From positions 1-64,000 of the forward strand of contig JAAFIM010000012.1 in the NCBI GenBank assembly GCA_013297745.1: a stretch of 64,000 bases of DNA, written 5' to 3'. The position numbers were made by a program, and so were the translations under genes. This stretch comes from Chitinophagales bacterium (GTDB taxonomy: Bacteria; Bacteroidota; Bacteroidia; Chitinophagales; Saprospiraceae). This document shows positions 13,401 to 52,594 of this stretch, piece after piece (position 1 is the stretch's first letter; every line of letters starts with the position of its first letter). The notes beneath the pieces are model-generated. The model saw nothing but the letters and a program-made list of their open reading frames with translations, made no database searches and had not been told where the DNA came from.

Positions 13401-13790
13401 GCCATAGGCTTGTTTCCGTCGTTGGTAATTAACCTGTGGCGGTTATGGGATTGTTTGCGCGGTTGTAAATTAACCTGTGGCGGTTATGGGATTGTTTGCG
13501 CGGTTGTAAATTAGCCTGTGGCGGTTATGGGATTGTTTGCGCGGTTGTAAATTAGCCTGTGGCGGTTATGGGCTTGTTTGCGTGGTTGTAAATTAGCCTG
13601 TGGCGGTTATGGGCTTGTTTGCGTGGTTGTAAATTAGCCTGTGGCGGTTATGGGCTTGTTTGCGCAGTTGTAAATTAGCCTGTGGCAGTTATGGGATTAT
13701 TTGCGCGGTTGTAAATTAGCCTGTGGCGGTTATGGGCTTATTTGCGCGGTTGTAAATTATCCTGTGACAGTTATGGGCTTGTTTGCGGTC
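13401..13790. repeat. Minisatellite: nine copies of a 41-bp unit plus an eroded leading copy
   Basis: The word CCTGTG recurs at 13433, 13474, 13515, 13556, 13597, 13638, 13679, 13720 and 13761, an exact 41-bp spacing. Each unit reads approximately TTGTAAATTAGCCTGTGGCG, then GTTATGGG and TTGTTTGCGCGG, with one to three substitutions. A weaker copy precedes from 13401. The period is not a multiple of three and the frames contain stops, so it is non-coding. It ends about 90 bp before the next gene's -7 box. The rest of 13294-13941 shows only AT-rich sequence. Confidence 0.92.
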
Positions 13791-25875: not shown

Positions 25876-26093
25876 CCTGTTTAGTAATTAAAATTTGTAA
25901 ACCATTTGCGCTCAGCGTGGGGTTTTACACCCCACGCGGTAATAAACGACAATTAAATTTTAATAAAACATATTGTTTTTTTCATATTTTGTGCGTGGGG
26001 TGTAAATCGGTAGAACCGCGAAGCGAAACCCCACGCTATTGATACGCACACAGTTATTTTTTTACTAGGCAAATTTAATTACTAAACAACTTC
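25876..26093. repeat. Dispersed element with GTTTAGTA inverted termini and GCGTGGGG palindromes
   Basis: The left edge reads CTGTTTAGTAATTAAAATTT, and the right edge AAATTTAATTACTAAACAAC then TTC: inverted repeats of about 20 bp. Inside are one simple palindrome around 25915-25938 (GCGTGGGG...CCCCACGC) and a second at 25993-26036 in which a ~20-bp insert (26007-26026, TCGGTAGAACCGCGAAGCGA) separates the two arms. It fills the gap between mnmD and the coiled-coil lipoprotein. No coding potential. Confidence 0.8.
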
Positions 26094-35986: not shown

Positions 35987-36180
35987 AAGCTGTTTAGTAG
36001 GAGATTTTTTACATTTTCAATTAAGAAAAATAACCATTTACGTATTTTAAGCAACAGACTAAAGTCTGTTGTAATCGTTTTTTGTCCTTCAACGGGTTAA
36101 AACCCGTTGGTATTGATTTATAAAATGCGCGGGAGTTCGCTTCTCGATTCTTCGAAGCAGTCCTGTGCTTACGTTTTCCC
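35987..36180. repeat. Partial dispersed element with CAACAGAC and CAACGGGT palindromes
   Basis: The left edge is GCTGTTTAGTAGGAGA; the GGAGATTTTTTACATT beside it is also present one copy earlier (35970). The palindromes CAACAGACTAAAGTCTGTTG (~36052) and CAACGGGTTAAAACCCGTTG (~36098) are followed by a GCGCGGGAGTTCGCTTCTCG segment. The same order occurs in reverse at 40855-40975 and forward at 52400-52500. No matching right terminus was found. Confidence 0.7.
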
Positions 36181-36185
36181 TCTTT

Positions 36186-36540
36186 CTTATACTAAATTTA
36201 AAAAGTAAGTGTATAACAGCAGCATAAATTATTTAAAATATTGGAGTTACGAGAGTATAGATTTTTTACAATAGCACGGGGTTTTATACCCCGTGCGGTA
36301 AATAAAAAAACCTTATTAGTGTTGGGTTTTACACCCAACACAACAAAAATATATTTCATAAAACTTTATTCTTGCGTGGGGTATAAATCGGTAGAACCGC
36401 GAAGCGAAACCCAACGCTAATAAGATTTTTGCATCGCGTGGGGTATAAATCGGTAGAACCGCGAAGCGAAACCCCACGCTCTCACTTATTTTTATAATCA
36501 TAGCTTTTATTACACACTTACTTTTTAAATTCTGTATTAT
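36186..36540. repeat. Element with a second kind of inverted termini and GTGGGG palindromes
   Basis: The left end (from 36190, ACTAAATTTAAAAAGTAAGT) and the right end (to about 36535, ACTTACTTTTTAAATTCTGT) are inverted copies over about 25 bp. Inside are CACGGGGTTTTATACCCCGTG-like and GTGTTGGGTTTTACACCCAAC-like hairpins. Two further palindromes (36374-36417 and 36436-36479) are split by the same ~20-bp insert as at 26007-26026. 36541-36825 is AT-rich with no feature seen. Confidence 0.7.
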
Positions 36541-40454: not shown

Positions 40455-40707
40455 ATACCCCGAGTGTTAAATTGAATTGAGATAGTGTTAAATTGAATTA
40501 AGCAAATATGAAGTTGGATTAAGCAAATATGAAGTTGGATTAAGCAAATATGAAGTTGGATTAAGCAAATATGAAGTTGGATTAAGCAAATATGAAATTG
40601 GATTAAGCAAATATGAAGTTGGATTAAGCAAATATGAAGTTGGGTTAGAATAGTATGAAGTTGGGTTAGAATAGTATGAAGTTGGGTTAAGATAATACGA
40701 ACTTAGA
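40455..40707. repeat. Minisatellite of ~12 copies of a 21-bp unit
   Basis: ATTAAGCAAATATGA recurs at 40497, 40518, 40539, 40560, 40581, 40602 and 40623. Variants GTTAGAATAGTATGA at 40644 and 40665 and GTTAAGATAATACGA at 40686 continue the exact 21-bp step, and two eroded units precede. The unit contains GAAGTTGG(G/A)TTA, and the array directly abuts the GAAGTTGTTTAGTATG terminus of the next element. Although the period is a multiple of three, no start or plausible ORF is present. Confidence 0.9.
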
Positions 40708-41003
40708 CTGAAGTTGTTTAGTATGCTTTTTTATTTTTTAATTTCTCTGTATTGTGCGGGAAAAACCGAAGAGGCAGCAAAGCTGCATCAAGCTGCGCGT
40801 AAGCGAAAGTCCCAGCACAATTGAGATTTAGGATTTTTTTGCGCTTTTGGGACTACTTCGAAGAACCGCGAAGCGAACTCCCGCGCGTTATATAGTTTTA
40901 TCAATCAATACCAACGGGTTTTAACCCGTTGAGAGACAAAAAAACGATTACAACAGACTTTAGTCTGTTGCTTAAAGTACATAAATGGTTATTTTTTTTA
41001 AAA

Positions 41004-41202
41004 GGTGTTTAGTAAGGTTTTAAAAGCTAAAACAAGCAACAATAACATAAGGCGCGCTCAATAGCGTGGGGTTTTACACCCCACGCGGCAATAAAAATTT
41101 TATCAAAATATATCATTTTTTTATTTGATTTCGTGCGTGGGGTATAAAACCCCACGCTATTGAGCGCGCAAATTGTACACAGTTTTTCTTACTAAACATC
41201 TG
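41004..41202. repeat. Nested element with GTTTAGTAAG termini and a 35-bp inverted repeat
   Basis: The edges are AGGTGTTTAGTAAG and CTTACTAAACATCT. Inside, 41052-41086 and 41135-41169 are inverted copies over 35 bp (GCGCGCTCAATAGCGTGGGG... / ...CCCCACGCTATTGAGCGCGC), each itself holding a GCGTGGGG-CCCCACGC palindrome. The whole could extrude as a large cruciform or fold into a cloverleaf. Confidence 0.8.
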
Positions 41203-45597: not shown

Positions 45598-45698
45598 TTT
45601 TTAAAACTATTATTTTTTAAAATTTATACTATTTTTGCAAATTATTTACGCTTTTATACCCCCACACAAACAATAATAGAACGTACAAAACATAACCT

Positions 45699-46145
45699 AT
45701 GAGCACTTATACCCAAATTTTATACCAGCTTATTTTCAGCACAAAATATAGAAATCCAACCTTGTTAAAAGAAAACAGAGCGGATTTATACAATTATATG
45801 CATCAAATACTATTAAATAAAGATTGTTTTGTGCATCAAATTGGGGGAATAGAAGACCATACGCACATCGTTTTTGCGCTTCATCCCAGCGTAGCTTTGG
45901 CTGATTTGGTTAGAGACATCAAATTAAGCACCAATGCTTTTATCAAAGAAAAAGCAATTTTTCCCCATTTTGAAGGTTGGCAAAGTGGATATGGTGCGTT
46001 TACTTATAGCGTGGCTGCTAAAAAAAATCTGATTGCTTATGTCAAAAATCAAGAAGAGCATCATAAAACACAAAATTCTACGGATGAGCTAAAAGAGATA
46101 TTGAAGGAGTTTCAAATTGAATATGACGAAAGATATTTTTTCTAA
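45699..46145 (+). CDS. REP-associated / IS200-like Y1 HUH transposase 1
   Basis: The 148-residue protein has the Y1 transposase layout: HUH motif HTH at 54-56 (IEDHTHIVFAL) and catalytic Tyr114 (LIAYVKNQEEHH). It begins MSTYTQILYQLIFSTKYRNP and ends in EYDERYF. IS200/IS605 TnpA enzymes cut and join single-stranded DNA at hairpins, and RAYTs are their single-copy, REP-linked relatives. The adjacent palindrome array supports a RAYT reading. About 104 of 148 residues match the second copy at 48602 by hand alignment. It lacks a TnpB partner. Confidence 0.88.
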   Translation: MSTYTQILYQLIFSTKYRNPTLLKENRADLYNYMHQILLNKDCFVHQIGGIEDHTHIVFALHPSVALADLVRDIKLSTNAFIKEKAIFPHFEGWQSGYGAFTYSVAAKKNLIAYVKNQEEHHKTQNSTDELKEILKEFQIEYDERYFF

Positions 46146-46179
46146 TCGTTTATATTTTCCACACTTTGCATTTTCTTTT

Positions 46180-46683
46180 CCCCACGCGGCGGCGTGGGGC
46201 TACCATTGTTCAAGGAGGGCTTACGCCGTTCAACCCCTTCGGGGTTGCTTTTTGCATTTTATTTTTCTTTTCCCCACGCGGCGGCGTGGGGCTACCATTG
46301 TTCAAGGAGGGCTTACGCCGTTCAACCCCTTCGGGGTTGCTTTTTGCATTTTATTTTTCTTTTCCCCACGCGGCGGCGTGGGGCTACCATTGTTCAAGGA
46401 GGGCTTACGCCGTTCAACCCCTTCGGGGTTGCTTTTTGCATTTTATTTTTCTTTTCCCCACGCGGCGGCGTGGGGTTTTATTTTTCTTTTCCCCACGCGG
46501 CGGCGTGGGGCTACCATTGTTCAAGGAGGGCTTACGCCGTTCAACCCCTTCGGGGTTGCTTTTTGCATTTTATTTTTCTTTTCCCCACGCGGCGGCGTGG
46601 GGACAACAATGCAACGTAATTTTCCACACTCAAGAGAACCCCAACGGGGTTCAATAGCGGTAACCCCACGCCGCCGCGTGGGG
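46180..46683. repeat. Array 1: REP-like palindromes, 92-bp period
   Basis: CCCCACGCGGCGGCGTGGGG (8-bp stem, GGCG loop) starts at 46180, 46272, 46364, 46456, 46491 and 46583. The step is exactly 92 bp except for a shortened 35-bp unit at 46456-46491. Each full unit also holds a second hairpin, CAACCCCTTCGGGGTTG. The last unit (46664-46683) is inverted and has the complementary GAACCCCAACGGGGTTC partner. Because 92 is not a multiple of three, all frames are similarly open, producing artefactual ORFs. 46146-46795 holds no gene. Confidence 0.93.
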
Positions 46684-46795
46684 ACAACAATGCAACGTAT
46701 TTTTCTATACACAAACAATAACAGAACGTATTTTTTTGCATCTTTCCCGCAAAGATAAGCATTTTCTCACCATTTCTAACCTTTTTTTTATTTTT

Positions 46796-48532
46796 ATGAG
46801 CAAAAAATTCTCTCAAACCACCCCCCCACAGTTTATTCCCTACGATAAAGAGATAGCGCAACAGTTGCAAACCGCGTTAAAAATACAACCCGTTTTCTGT
46901 CAATTATTGGCGCAAAGGGGTATAAATAGTTTTGATACGGCTAAGAATTTCTTTCGCCCTCAACTAAGCCAACTACACGACCCTTTTTTAATGCTGGATA
47001 TGGATAAGGCTGTGCGCCGTTTGGAAAAAGCGTTGATTAAGCGTGAAAAGATACTTGTTTATGGCGATTATGATGTAGATGGCACAACCAGCGCAGCTTT
47101 ATTGGTGAGTTTTTTGCGAGATTATAGCCCAACTGTAGATTTTTACATCCCAGACCGCCACGATGAGGGTTATGGGATTAGTCAAAAGGGGGTAGAATGG
47201 GCAAAAGGGCAAGGTTTTAATCTGATTATAGCTTTGGATTGTGGAATTAGCGCAGTAGAGCGGGTGGCTTGGGCTAAAACTCAAGGGATTGATTTTATCA
47301 TTTGCGACCATCACCTACCCGCCGAGATTTTGCCCGATGCTGTGGCTATTCTCAACCCCAAACAAGCCAATTGCAACTATCCTTTTAAAGAATTATGCGG
47401 CTGTGCTATAGGGTTTAAACTGCTACAGGCTTTTGTGATTAACAACGATATTGAACCGAGCAAATTATGGGCGCAGTTGGATTTGGTCGCTTTGGCGTTG
47501 GCTTGCGATTATGTGGATTTATACGGTGAGAATAGAATTTTAGCTTATTACGGGTTAAAACAATTAAACGAAAATCCCCGCTTAGGTTTGGATACGCTCA
47601 AGGCTTTATTGATTAGCCCAGAGGAAAATCCAGAGTTGGATATACACAGTTTAGTGTTCAAATTTGGTCCTATTATCAACGCAGCAGGGCGCATAGAACA
47701 CGCCCGCGAAGCCGTGCAGTTGTTTTTATCCACTAGCGAAATCATCTGCAATTTGCACGCCAACCGCCTGTTTGAACTGAACGAAGAACGCCGCGCCTTA
47801 GAAAAAGAAACCGCCTCTCAAGCTCGAGCGCAGTTGTTGGCTATAGAAAATTGGCAAGAAGCTCCCATATTTATACTCTATCAATCCGATTGGCACAAGG
47901 GCGTTTTGGGCATAGTGGCGGCGCGTATTGTGGAGGAATTTTCCCGCCCTGCTATCATTTTGACCCAATCCAACGGGCTTTGGGTGGGTTCGGCTCGCAG
48001 CGTGGGCGGTTTTGATATACATAAAAGTTTAGAACATTGCGCCGATTATCTTAACGCTTACGGTGGGCATCGTTCTGCTGCTGGAATGAGTATTGCGCCT
48101 GACCAGTTAGATAATTTTGTACAAACAATACAAGCTTACGCTCAAGAAAATTTCAACCCTGTTACTGATATTGAAAGTTTAAAAATAGATGCAACTATAG
48201 AATTATCACAAATAAACGATAAATTTTGGCAATTGTTGGCTCAATTCGCCCCTTTTGCTCCCGCTAATATGCGCCCTGTGTTTTATGCCCAAAATGTGCG
48301 AGCAGTAGGTTTGCCCAAATTGCTAAAAGATACCCATTTAAAATTTCAAGTAGCTACCGATGCGCAACCTTTAGATGTGATTGGGTTTAATTTAAGCGAG
48401 CATTTAGATACCGTACAATTGGGACAAAGTTTTAATATGGCTTTTGTTGTGCAAGAAAATTATTTTAAAGGACAACGCCGTTTGCAGTTGGAGGCGAGAT
48501 TTATTAGTGATTTCATAATCCCCGCGTTGTAA
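46796..48532 (+). CDS. recJ: Single-stranded-DNA exonuclease RecJ
   Basis: The start at ATG 46796 gives 578 residues. DHH-family motifs are clear: VYGDYDVDGTTSAALL (motif I), DIPDRHDEGYG-like segment (FYIPDRHDEGYG), ALDCGIS, CDHHLP (motif III), INAAGRIEHA, and the DHHA1 part with SVGGFDIHKSLEHC and GGHRSAAGMS. The C-terminal OB-like portion follows. The length matches bacterial RecJ. It degrades ssDNA 5'-3' in recombination and mismatch repair. It sits between two RAYT modules and so is a housekeeping gene inside a repeat-rich interval. Confidence 0.95.
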   Translation: MSKKFSQTTPPQFIPYDKEIAQQLQTALKIQPVFCQLLAQRGINSFDTAKNFFRPQLSQLHDPFLMLDMDKAVRRLEKALIKREKILVYGDYDVDGTTSAALLVSFLRDYSPTVDFYIPDRHDEGYGISQKGVEWAKGQGFNLIIALDCGISAVERVAWAKTQGIDFIICDHHLPAEILPDAVAILNPKQANCNYPFKELCGCAIGFKLLQAFVINNDIEPSKLWAQLDLVALALACDYVDLYGENRILAYYGLKQLNENPRLGLDTLKALLISPEENPELDIHSLVFKFGPIINAAGRIEHAREAVQLFLSTSEIICNLHANRLFELNEERRALEKETASQARAQLLAIENWQEAPIFILYQSDWHKGVLGIVAARIVEEFSRPAIILTQSNGLWVGSARSVGGFDIHKSLEHCADYLNAYGGHRSAAGMSIAPDQLDNFVQTIQAYAQENFNPVTDIESLKIDATIELSQINDKFWQLLAQFAPFAPANMRPVFYAQNVRAVGLPKLLKDTHLKFQVATDAQPLDVIGFNLSEHLDTVQLGQSFNMAFVVQENYFKGQRRLQLEARFISDFIIPAL

Positions 48533-48601
48533 TCTCAACCCCAACGAGGTTAGAATATGGATTTATTTTTGTTGATTGCATTTCAAAATCAAAAAAGCAT
48601 T

Positions 48602-49048
48602 ATGAGTACTTACACCCAAATTTTATACCAATTGGTATTTTGTACTAAGTATAGAAATCCCATTTTGTTAAAACCTTATCGCGAAAATTTATACGCTTGT
48701 ATGTCCCAAATTATAAACAACAAACTTTGTTTTTCTTATGAGATTGGGGGTATAGAAGACCATTTACATTTTATTTTCTCTTTACACCCAAGCATTGCTT
48801 TGGCGGATTTGGTTAAATCTATTAAATTGGGAAGTGCAAACTATATCAAAGAAAAAAATCTTTTTCCCGATTTTGAAGGTTGGCAAACAGGTTATGCTGC
48901 TTTTACTTACAGTTTTTCTGCAAAAGATAATTTGATTACTTACGTCAAAAATCAAGAACAGCATCACCAATCCCAAAATTCCACCGATGAGCTAAAAGAA
49001 TTATTAAAAGAGTTTGAGATTGCTTACGATGAGCGATATTTTATTTAA
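48602..49048 (+). CDS. REP-associated / IS200-like Y1 HUH transposase 2
   Basis: The start at ATG 48602 (the ORF from 48557 adds 15 unlikely residues) gives 148 residues, the same length as copy 1. HUH is HLH at 54-56 and Tyr114 lies in LITYVKNQEQHH. Roughly 70 percent of residues are identical to copy 1, so they are old paralogues rather than a recent insertion pair. The 48533-48601 leader resembles the array-2 unit (TCTCAACCCCAACGAGGTTA then ATGGATTTATTTTTG), so the gene appears embedded in its own array. No TnpB. Confidence 0.88.
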   Translation: MSTYTQILYQLVFCTKYRNPILLKPYRENLYACMSQIINNKLCFSYEIGGIEDHLHFIFSLHPSIALADLVKSIKLGSANYIKEKNLFPDFEGWQTGYAAFTYSFSAKDNLITYVKNQEQHHQSQNSTDELKELLKEFEIAYDERYFI

Positions 49049-49070
49049 TTTTTATTGCGTTTTCTATAAT

Positions 49071-49768
49071 CCCCGCGTTGTAACGCGGGGCTATTTCTGT
49101 TCAACCCCATTGGGGTTAGGATTTGGATTTGTTTTTTATAATTTACGTTTTTTCTATAATCCCCGCGTTGTAACGCGGGGCTATTTCTGTTCAACCCTGT
49201 TGGGGTTGTAATTTGGATTTGTTTTTTATAATTTACGTTTTTCCTATAATCCTCGCGTTGTAACGCGAGGCTATTTCTGTTCAACCCCGTTGGGGTTGGA
49301 ATTTGGATTTGTTTTTTATAATTTACGTTTTTCCTATAATCCTCGCGTTGTAACGCGAGGCTATTTCTGTTCAACCCCGTTGGGGTTGTAATTTGGATTT
49401 GTTTTTATTTTTATGTTTTGCGTATATTTTTTGTAATTTGCGTTCTTTATAATCTCAACCCTGTTGGGGTTGTAATTTGGATTTGTTTTTTATAATTTAC
49501 GTTTTTCCTATAATCCTCGCGTTGTAACGCGAGGCTATTTCTGTTCAACCCCGTTGGGGTTGGAATTTGGATTTGTTTTTTATAATTTACGTTTTTCCTA
49601 TAATCCTCGCGTTGTAACGCGAGGCTATTTCTGTTCAATCCCGTTGGGGTTGGAATTTGGATTTGTTTTTATTTTTATGTTTTGCGTATATTTTTTGTAA
49701 TTTGCGTTCTTTATAATCTCAACCCCAACGGGGTTGAACAGTAATTGCCCCGTGTTACAACACGGGGG
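49071..49768. repeat. Array 2: REP-like palindromes, 90-bp period with covarying stems
   Basis: CCCCGCGTTGTAACGCGGGG at 49071 and 49161, then CCTCGCGTTGTAACGCGAGG at 49251, 49341, 49515 and 49605, form 9-bp stems with a GT loop in 90-bp steps. A spacer of TTTATTTTTATGTTTTGCG separates the two blocks of units and recurs near the end. Each unit also holds a second hairpin near CAACCCCGTTGGGGTTG. The terminal copy, CCCCGTGTTACAACACGGGG (49749), is inverted. The 90-bp period creates minus-strand ORFs with a 30-residue repeat, rejected as genes. 49769-49946 shows no gene. Confidence 0.93.
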
Positions 49769-52332: not shown

Positions 52333-52594
52333 AGATGTTTAGTAAGAATTTTTTTACATTTTCAATCAAGAAAAATAACTGTTTATGCCTTTTAAGCAAC
52401 AGACTAAAGTCTGTTGCAATTGTTTTTTTGTCCTTCAACGGGTTAAAACCCGTTGGTATTGACCGATAAAAGTATAAAACGCGCGGGGCTTCAGCCCCAA
52501 AAGCGCGAAAAAATCCTAAATATCAATTGTGCTGGGACTTTAGTCCCGCACAACATAGAGAAATTAAAAGATAAAAATCATACTAAACAACTCC
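52333..52594. repeat. Dispersed element with GTTTAGTA termini and CAACAGAC/CAACGGGT palindromes
   Basis: The left edge is AGATGTTTAGTAAGAA and the right edge CATACTAAACAACTCC. Inside, in order: CAACAGACTAAAGTCTGTTG, CAACGGGTTAAAACCCGTTG, a GCGCGGGGCTTCAGCCCC hairpin and GTGCTGGGACTTTAGTCCCG. The same order reversed occupies 40711-41003. It fills the gap between the LRR gene and the OmpA-type gene. Confidence 0.8.

Follow-up and report, generated by a model that had tools for sequence, protein, structure and literature searches.

Two related genes for Y1 HUH transposases lie on either side of recJ in a Chitinophagales bacterium of the family Saprospiraceae (contig JAAFIM010000012.1), each directly upstream of its own tandem array of hairpins, and the locus raises the question of what kind of transposases these are, whether the palindromes are theirs, and how the arrays have grown. 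The stretch analysed, called the window below, comprises positions 1 to 64,000 of the contig; the features of the locus are collected in the table. An initial annotation had described two 148-residue Y1 HUH transposases about 70% identical to each other, and this holds: the two proteins are 71% identical and flank recJ, which is placed between their genes. Gene 2 has an extra in-frame ATG 45 bp upstream of the start given here, which is where homology begins (48602). At the 3' end of recJ, the final codons and the stop (48515-48532) form a half palindrome of the array-2 type, CCCCGCGTTGTAA, as if a unit of that type had cut into the gene.

Table. Features of the two transposase-array pairs and of recJ (positions are those of the window)
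Feature	Position	Strand	Details
Y1 HUH transposase 1	45699..46145	+	148 aa; subclass 1.2 type; DHTH, WQ, YVKNQEEHH
Array 1, tandem two-hairpin units	46171..46602	+	period 92; one 35-bp shortened unit
Array 1 PAL1	46180, 46272, 46364, 46456, 46491, 46583	+	CCCCACGCGGCGGCGTGGGG
Array 1 PAL1 followed by CTACCATTGTTCAA and PAL2			PAL2 CAACCCCTTCGGGGTTG; in 4/6 copies
Inverted end unit of array 1	46637..46683	-	AACCCCAACGGGGTT ... CCCCACGCCGCCGCGTGGGG
recJ, single-strand-specific exonuclease	46736..48532	+	TIGR00644, 7e-153
Remnant unit 5' of transposase gene 2	48517..48551	+	half of array-2 PAL1 and second hairpin; AACCCCAACGAGGTT
Y1 HUH transposase 2	48602..49048	+	148 aa; subclass 1.2 type; DHLH, WQ, YVKNQEQHH
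Array 2, tandem two-hairpin units	49060..49718	+	period 90
Array 2 PAL1, first form	49071, 49161	+	CCCCGCGTTGTAACGCGGGG
Array 2 PAL1, second form	49251, 49341, 49515, 49605	+	CCTCGCGTTGTAACGCGAGG
Array 2 PAL1 followed by CTATTTCTGTTCAA and PAL2			
Inverted end unit of array 2	49715..49767	-	PAL1 CCCCGTGTTACAACACGGGG

Both enzymes had been labelled RAYTs, a label that gives way to another on closer examination. The RAYT model NF047646 gives protein 2 a score of 22.2 against a cut-off of 80 and has no match to protein 1, and the Y motif of the window proteins is YVKNQ, with no class 2 motif YxxxNP; by contrast, both proteins pass the cut-off of the IS200 model NF033573. They have the features of subclass 1.2, the YxxxQxxHH TnpA proteins of Quentin et al. 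2018 (PMC6006769), namely Y---Q--HH, WQ and a length of 148 aa, as well as the low and diverged copy number (the genome has four such genes, and the others share 30-71% identity with the query). Y114, Q118, H121 and H122 are invariant in 26 relatives together with the HxH histidines, and the HuH motifs of the window proteins (DHLH and DHTH) have a middle residue unlike that of the published consensus DH[IV]H. An AlphaFold (AF2) model of transposase 2 (mean pLDDT 90.6) matches structures of the ISDra2 and IS608 TnpA proteins, many of them bound to an end hairpin, with E values of 1e-8 to 1e-9, and the E. coli RAYT-REP structure 4er8 more weakly (6e-6). HMM, motif and fold agree, and the window enzymes fit an IS200-like TnpA of subclass 1.2, for which Table 1 of the survey by Quentin et al. 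lists 'no' under associated REPs.

An array of two-hairpin units does adjoin each gene, with the periods of 92 and 90 bp first reported; the first base of array 1 lies 26 bp past the stop codon of gene 1, and that of array 2 lies 12 bp past the stop codon of gene 2. The order within a unit is the same in both: a GC-rich hairpin (PAL1), CTA..GTTCAA, a second hairpin (PAL2, CAACCCC..GGGGTTG) and an AT-rich spacer. That the arrays share their architecture and not their stems, as the initial annotation had it, is correct for PAL1, which differs between them, but not for PAL2, which is nearly identical in both. Array 1 contains 3.3 copies at 100% identity (TRF, 46171-46475), with three units identical; beyond 46475 come the shortened piece of 35 bp, one further unit and the inverted end unit, which reaches 46683. 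In array 1 CCCCACGCGGCGGCGTGGGG occurs six times and its reverse-complement form once. Array 2 contains 6.9 copies (49060-49670) and a higher-order repeat, the 264-bp blocks at 49191-49454 and 49455-49718 being identical at 262/264 positions. In four of its six PAL1 copies a C-G stem pair is replaced by T-A on both arms (CCCCGCG/CGCGGGG to CCTCGCG/CGCGAGG). Each array terminates in one inverted unit, a correction to the earlier description, and the inverted unit of array 2 belongs to the type that forms the right half of the dispersed doublets considered below. Folded as single-stranded DNA, the units reach z scores of -3.7 (array 1) and -5.8 to -6.4 (array 2) against shuffled sequence, and because they fold far better than the shuffles, the arrays are not chance products. 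Two other readings were rejected: CRISPR arrays, as there are no spacers, and simple terminators, as hairpins lie on both sides of the genes.

The association of gene and palindrome can be followed across relatives, for which 79 loci of the transposase clade were taken from species genomes. In intergenic DNA, hairpins with stems of at least 7 bp number 5.2/kb up to 500 bp from the gene versus 1.06/kb beyond 1.5 kb, and the raw 500-bp flanks of 78 loci hold 271 hairpins versus 4 in dinucleotide shuffles. At least one near-gene hairpin is present in 67/78 loci, and hairpins on both sides in 35/78, so that the transposase-palindrome link drawn from this single locus is strong across relatives. 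Tandem arrays (counted from a period of 40 upward) reach 0.258/kb within 1 kb of the gene and 0.008/kb farther away in the same loci, a density ratio of about 33, and lie near the gene in 24/78 relatives; tandem amplification beside the enzyme, suspected from the window, is therefore real and recurrent. A frequent layout, read outward from the stop codon, is PAL3, some 25 nt, PAL1 (8-bp stem, triloop), CTATTCA and PAL2. A more distant branch of the subclass has series of hairpins downstream of the gene in several loci (L073, L074, L076). In one Siphonobacter genome (L082) the order of the hairpins relative to the gene is reversed, which counts against the reading reached below, and in Chryseobacterium piscicola (L127) a 71-bp two-hairpin unit is repeated in 12.6 tandem copies, 594-1487 bases from the gene start.

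Read on the other strand, the frequent unit consists of GAATAG, a stem and a GNA loop. The tag marks 33/236 near-gene hairpins versus 1/77 far ones (p=0.001), and a tag-like sequence stands at the hairpin foot in 44/93 loci, by a regular expression that also lets in a few weak matches. The near-gene triloops are GNA or its complement in 136 of 179 cases (76%), and the 24 tagged hairpins whose loop is TTC, TGC or GAA have the GNA form on the strand of the 5'-GAATAG in 22 cases. In the window the tag, on the strand opposite the gene, reads GGTAG for array 1 and AATAG for array 2, so that the foot tetranucleotides are GTAG and ATAG respectively, where relatives mostly have GAATAG. Such an asymmetry of tag and loop between strands is what would be expected if one single strand were recognised. 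The 5' tag, 8-bp stem and 3-nt loop of the relatives resemble the REP of S. maltophilia (PMC8266576), which has an 8-bp stem, a 3-nt loop and a tetranucleotide, and whose loop is read by its TnpAREP.

The window's genome holds more of these systems than the window itself. Four YxxxQxxHH genes were found, the two described and two others at C84 and C114, and each has a distinct array downstream; at the C84 and C114 genes, too, two-hairpin units with other stems are repeated in tandem immediately downstream. The proposal of co-resident, diverged transposase-array pairs is upheld in that several pairs share one genome, with the amendment that they are four and not two. A whole-genome search also overturns the idea of purely local palindromes, as related units are dispersed throughout: about 46, 60, 82 and 49 matching stretches were found for the four repeat types, their own arrays counted in. 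The C84 type forms some 30 inverted pairs roughly 80 bp apart across the genome, and the window types form 23 doublets of a constant length of 102-104 bp, which lie in several unrelated flank contexts. A low-copy gene, flanking palindromes and genome-wide dispersal, often as inverted doublets, make up the arrangement of a REPtron. The window contains C84-type palindromes (AATAGCGTGGGGTTTTACACCCCACGC) at 25914-26037, 36273-36480 and 41052-41169, the last a clean inverted doublet. Also present are a non-palindromic tandem repeat with a period of 41 bp and about nine copies (13404-13787; unit with ATTAGCCTGTGGCGGTTATGGG) and a 21-bp tandem repeat (GTTGGATTAAGCAAATATGAA, 40469-40700) that stops just before a hairpin-rich repeat with a AGTTGTTTAGTA end.

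Dispersal extends to relatives. Among 34 gene-bearing genomes the pattern CCNNNGGTTNCACCNNNGGYTA has about 200 matches versus 2 for its reversed control, 38 of them in Algoriphagus boritolerans; many of the sites are inverted pairs 100-140 bp apart, and the examples fetched are complete doublets, some in tandem. At the 84 listed sites outside Algoriphagus the three free stem positions are fully complementary in 56, where chance would give 1/64. Across a class-wide sample of 395 genomes, with a close homologue defined by a cut at about 130 bits, 9/24 gene-bearing genomes and 20/371 others are positive (Fisher p=1e-5). The 20 positive genomes in which no close homologue was detected count against the reading we prefer, and 15 of the 24 gene-bearing genomes are negative for the pattern, which is limited to stems with GGT at their end. 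In 299 genomes of the order an initial tag pattern, GGYTATTCANRTTSAA, gave 67 listed sites, only moderately above its reversed control, and therefore indicates a modest dispersal of that exact form within the order. In the Algoriphagus doublets (L187-L190, L193) the hairpin at one end pairs perfectly, whereas that at the other retains a mismatch in its third stem position (CCACGGGT...ACCCGCGG), an inequality reminiscent of unequal left and right ends.

From the anatomy of the arrays, the co-occurrence of palindromes and gene in relatives, the tag, the asymmetry of the loop and the dispersed inverted doublets, we conclude that the two pairs in the window probably belong to a set of four REPtron-like loci in this genome, each of them operated by a Y1 HUH transposase of subclass 1.2. 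The enzyme would most likely bind the palindrome as single-stranded DNA through the hairpin and the short tag just 5' of its foot, use its tyrosine to nick it, and carry inverted pairs of hairpin units to new sites. Such movement would spread REPIN-like doublets and keep copies at the gene's own flanks, and slippage or unequal recombination would be the main cause of lengthening and homogenisation in the gene-side tandem arrays.

Whether the enzymes move the palindromes at all is the point at which the most serious rival differs, according to which the palindromes are passive, being parts of ordinary MITEs or of 3'-end and terminator hairpins, spread by an unrelated transposase that recognises terminal inverted repeats, and the subclass 1.2 genes merely sit in repeat-rich intergenic DNA. 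Many doublets of the genome are indeed embedded in larger repeats with inverted ends of their own, so another transposase may have spread them; in the window, similar elements with terminal inverted repeats at 35988-36537, 40712-41001 and 52333-52592 are long repeats bounded by AGTTGTTTAGTA- and TACTAAACAACT-like ends; they contain several hairpins resembling those of the C114 gene, and have about 40 related stretches across the genome. Also counting against our own reading, a search of the carrier copies found no clean empty site, and in two of them a single hairpin stands in the doublet's place. Against this rival, hairpins and arrays are concentrated at the gene across genera and fade with distance, their presence on both sides of it in 35/78 loci is unlike terminators, the tag and loop asymmetry points to recognition of a single strand, and the 102-104-bp doublet recurs in unrelated contexts. 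We therefore regard passive palindromes as unlikely.

A second alternative, which treats every locus as an ordinary IS200-like insertion sequence in which tandem duplication has multiplied the subterminal hairpins, leaving IS ends and MITEs and no REP-like population, appears to us quite unlikely. It draws on the passing of the IS200 HMM cut-off and on gene-less doublets in two genomes (L191, L195) that are laid out like the two sides of the gene (PAL2-tag-PAL1-PAL3 ... PAL3-PAL1-tag-PAL2), which is what internal deletion of an IS would produce; however, the genes are low in copy and diverged within the genome, the doublets of L187-L190 have the opposite layout, and they occur as separate units, as REPtron-like repeats would. 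No near-identical copies, such as mark a mobile IS200/IS605 element, were found in the window's own genome, and the ends are not defined. Two identical copies in Siphonobacter were considered as a guide to element ends and set aside, as they belong to a single inverted duplication of 16 kb or result from misassembly. That a class 2 RAYT mobilises the dispersed palindromes, with the subclass 1.2 enzymes as bystanders, is very improbable: a class-2-like Y1 gene (motif YIINNP) is present at C70 and the opposite-strand GTAG of array 1 is the classical RAYT guide, but within about 1 kb of that gene there is just a single hairpin, which is unrelated in type, all four subclass 1.2 genes have arrays directly downstream, and the association in relatives is with subclass 1.2 genes.

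Within the REPtron-like reading, the initial annotation had each enzyme possibly amplifying its own REP, and an exclusive pairing of enzyme and stem finds no support: PAL2 is common to both arrays, a hybrid doublet (L021:1889-1992) carries one end of each window type, and stems do not track proteins, stem distance and protein distance being uncorrelated in a Mantel test of 44 loci (r=0.06, p=0.2), a lack of covariation that counts against the REPtron-like reading as well. Stems differ by 1.5 mismatches in 8 positions within a locus versus 3.8 between loci, and the agreement within loci fits local homogenisation. The arrays of the window look homogenised by recombination or slippage because the 264-bp block is duplicated almost without change and units of array 1 are identical. 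Of the suggestion that each enzyme may amplify its own REP locally, the tandem growth is real, but slippage or recombination explains it at least as well as the transposase; judged from the sequences, such growth is suggested for the arrays.

Taken together, our results suggest that a little-studied transposase family usually neighbours tagged palindromes, some of them dispersed through genomes. We lean slightly towards a broader view, that subclass 1.2 is a separate, Bacteroidota-wide REP-like lineage which arose beside IS200 independently of the class 2 RAYTs, with a recognition code of its own (5'-GAATAG, 8-bp stem, GNA triloop on one strand) and the capacity to house several differently keyed systems in a single genome. 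The job of subclass 1.2 has been unknown, because its classification left it as a relative of IS200 without IS properties and without REPs. The likeness of the present proteins to that subclass (PMC6006769) is close: 148 aa, WQ, Y---Q--HH, low and diverged copy number, a Bacteroidetes host and IS200 TnpA as the closest relative. The difference is that no REPs were recorded there, whereas in the present clade most genes have flanking hairpins, which often carry a tag and often form tandem arrays. The main texts of the open-access literature yielded no mention of REP-like repeats in subclass 1.2; on our best reading the novelty is that a subclass listed as having no REPs shows a REPtron-like arrangement, as judged from one survey table (PMC6006769) and the open-access literature. 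The tagged hairpins provide a concrete candidate substrate for subclass 1.2, with strand, tag, stem length and loop all predicted, and the four co-resident systems together with cultured hosts (Algoriphagus, Belliella, Chryseobacterium) make REP specificity and the growth of tandem arrays testable.

Three known systems invite comparison. De Nocera et al. 2013 (PMC3733652) described palindromic repeats tagged CGTC or GTAG, and TIRYTs, with the CGTC type reported in Bacteroidetes and having no dedicated transposase, and the GTAG type not listed for Bacteroidetes; our repeats are likewise tagged palindromes that form dimers and tandem clusters, but their tag is (GA)ATAG or GTAG and they lie beside a gene. 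With IS200/IS605 elements (IS608, ISDra2) and their MITEs they share the HUH Y1 fold, the YxxxQ motif and hairpin ends with a 5' guide sequence; they differ in that the window's genome has no near-identical mobile copies, the flanking modules are mutually inverted and often multiplied, and the dispersed units are without a gene. The class 2 REPtrons (TnpAREP/RAYT with REP, BIME or REPIN; PMC2817692, PMC3116915, PMC6006769) resemble the present loci in their low-copy gene flanked by palindromes, their genome-wide inverted doublets and the short tag 5' of the hairpin, whereas here the protein belongs to class 1 and is without YxxxNP, the tag is mostly GAATAG and not GT[AG]G, each half contains two or three hairpins, and gene-side tandem arrays are frequent; if the broader view is true, it would point to more than one origin of REP-like systems from IS200-type transposases.
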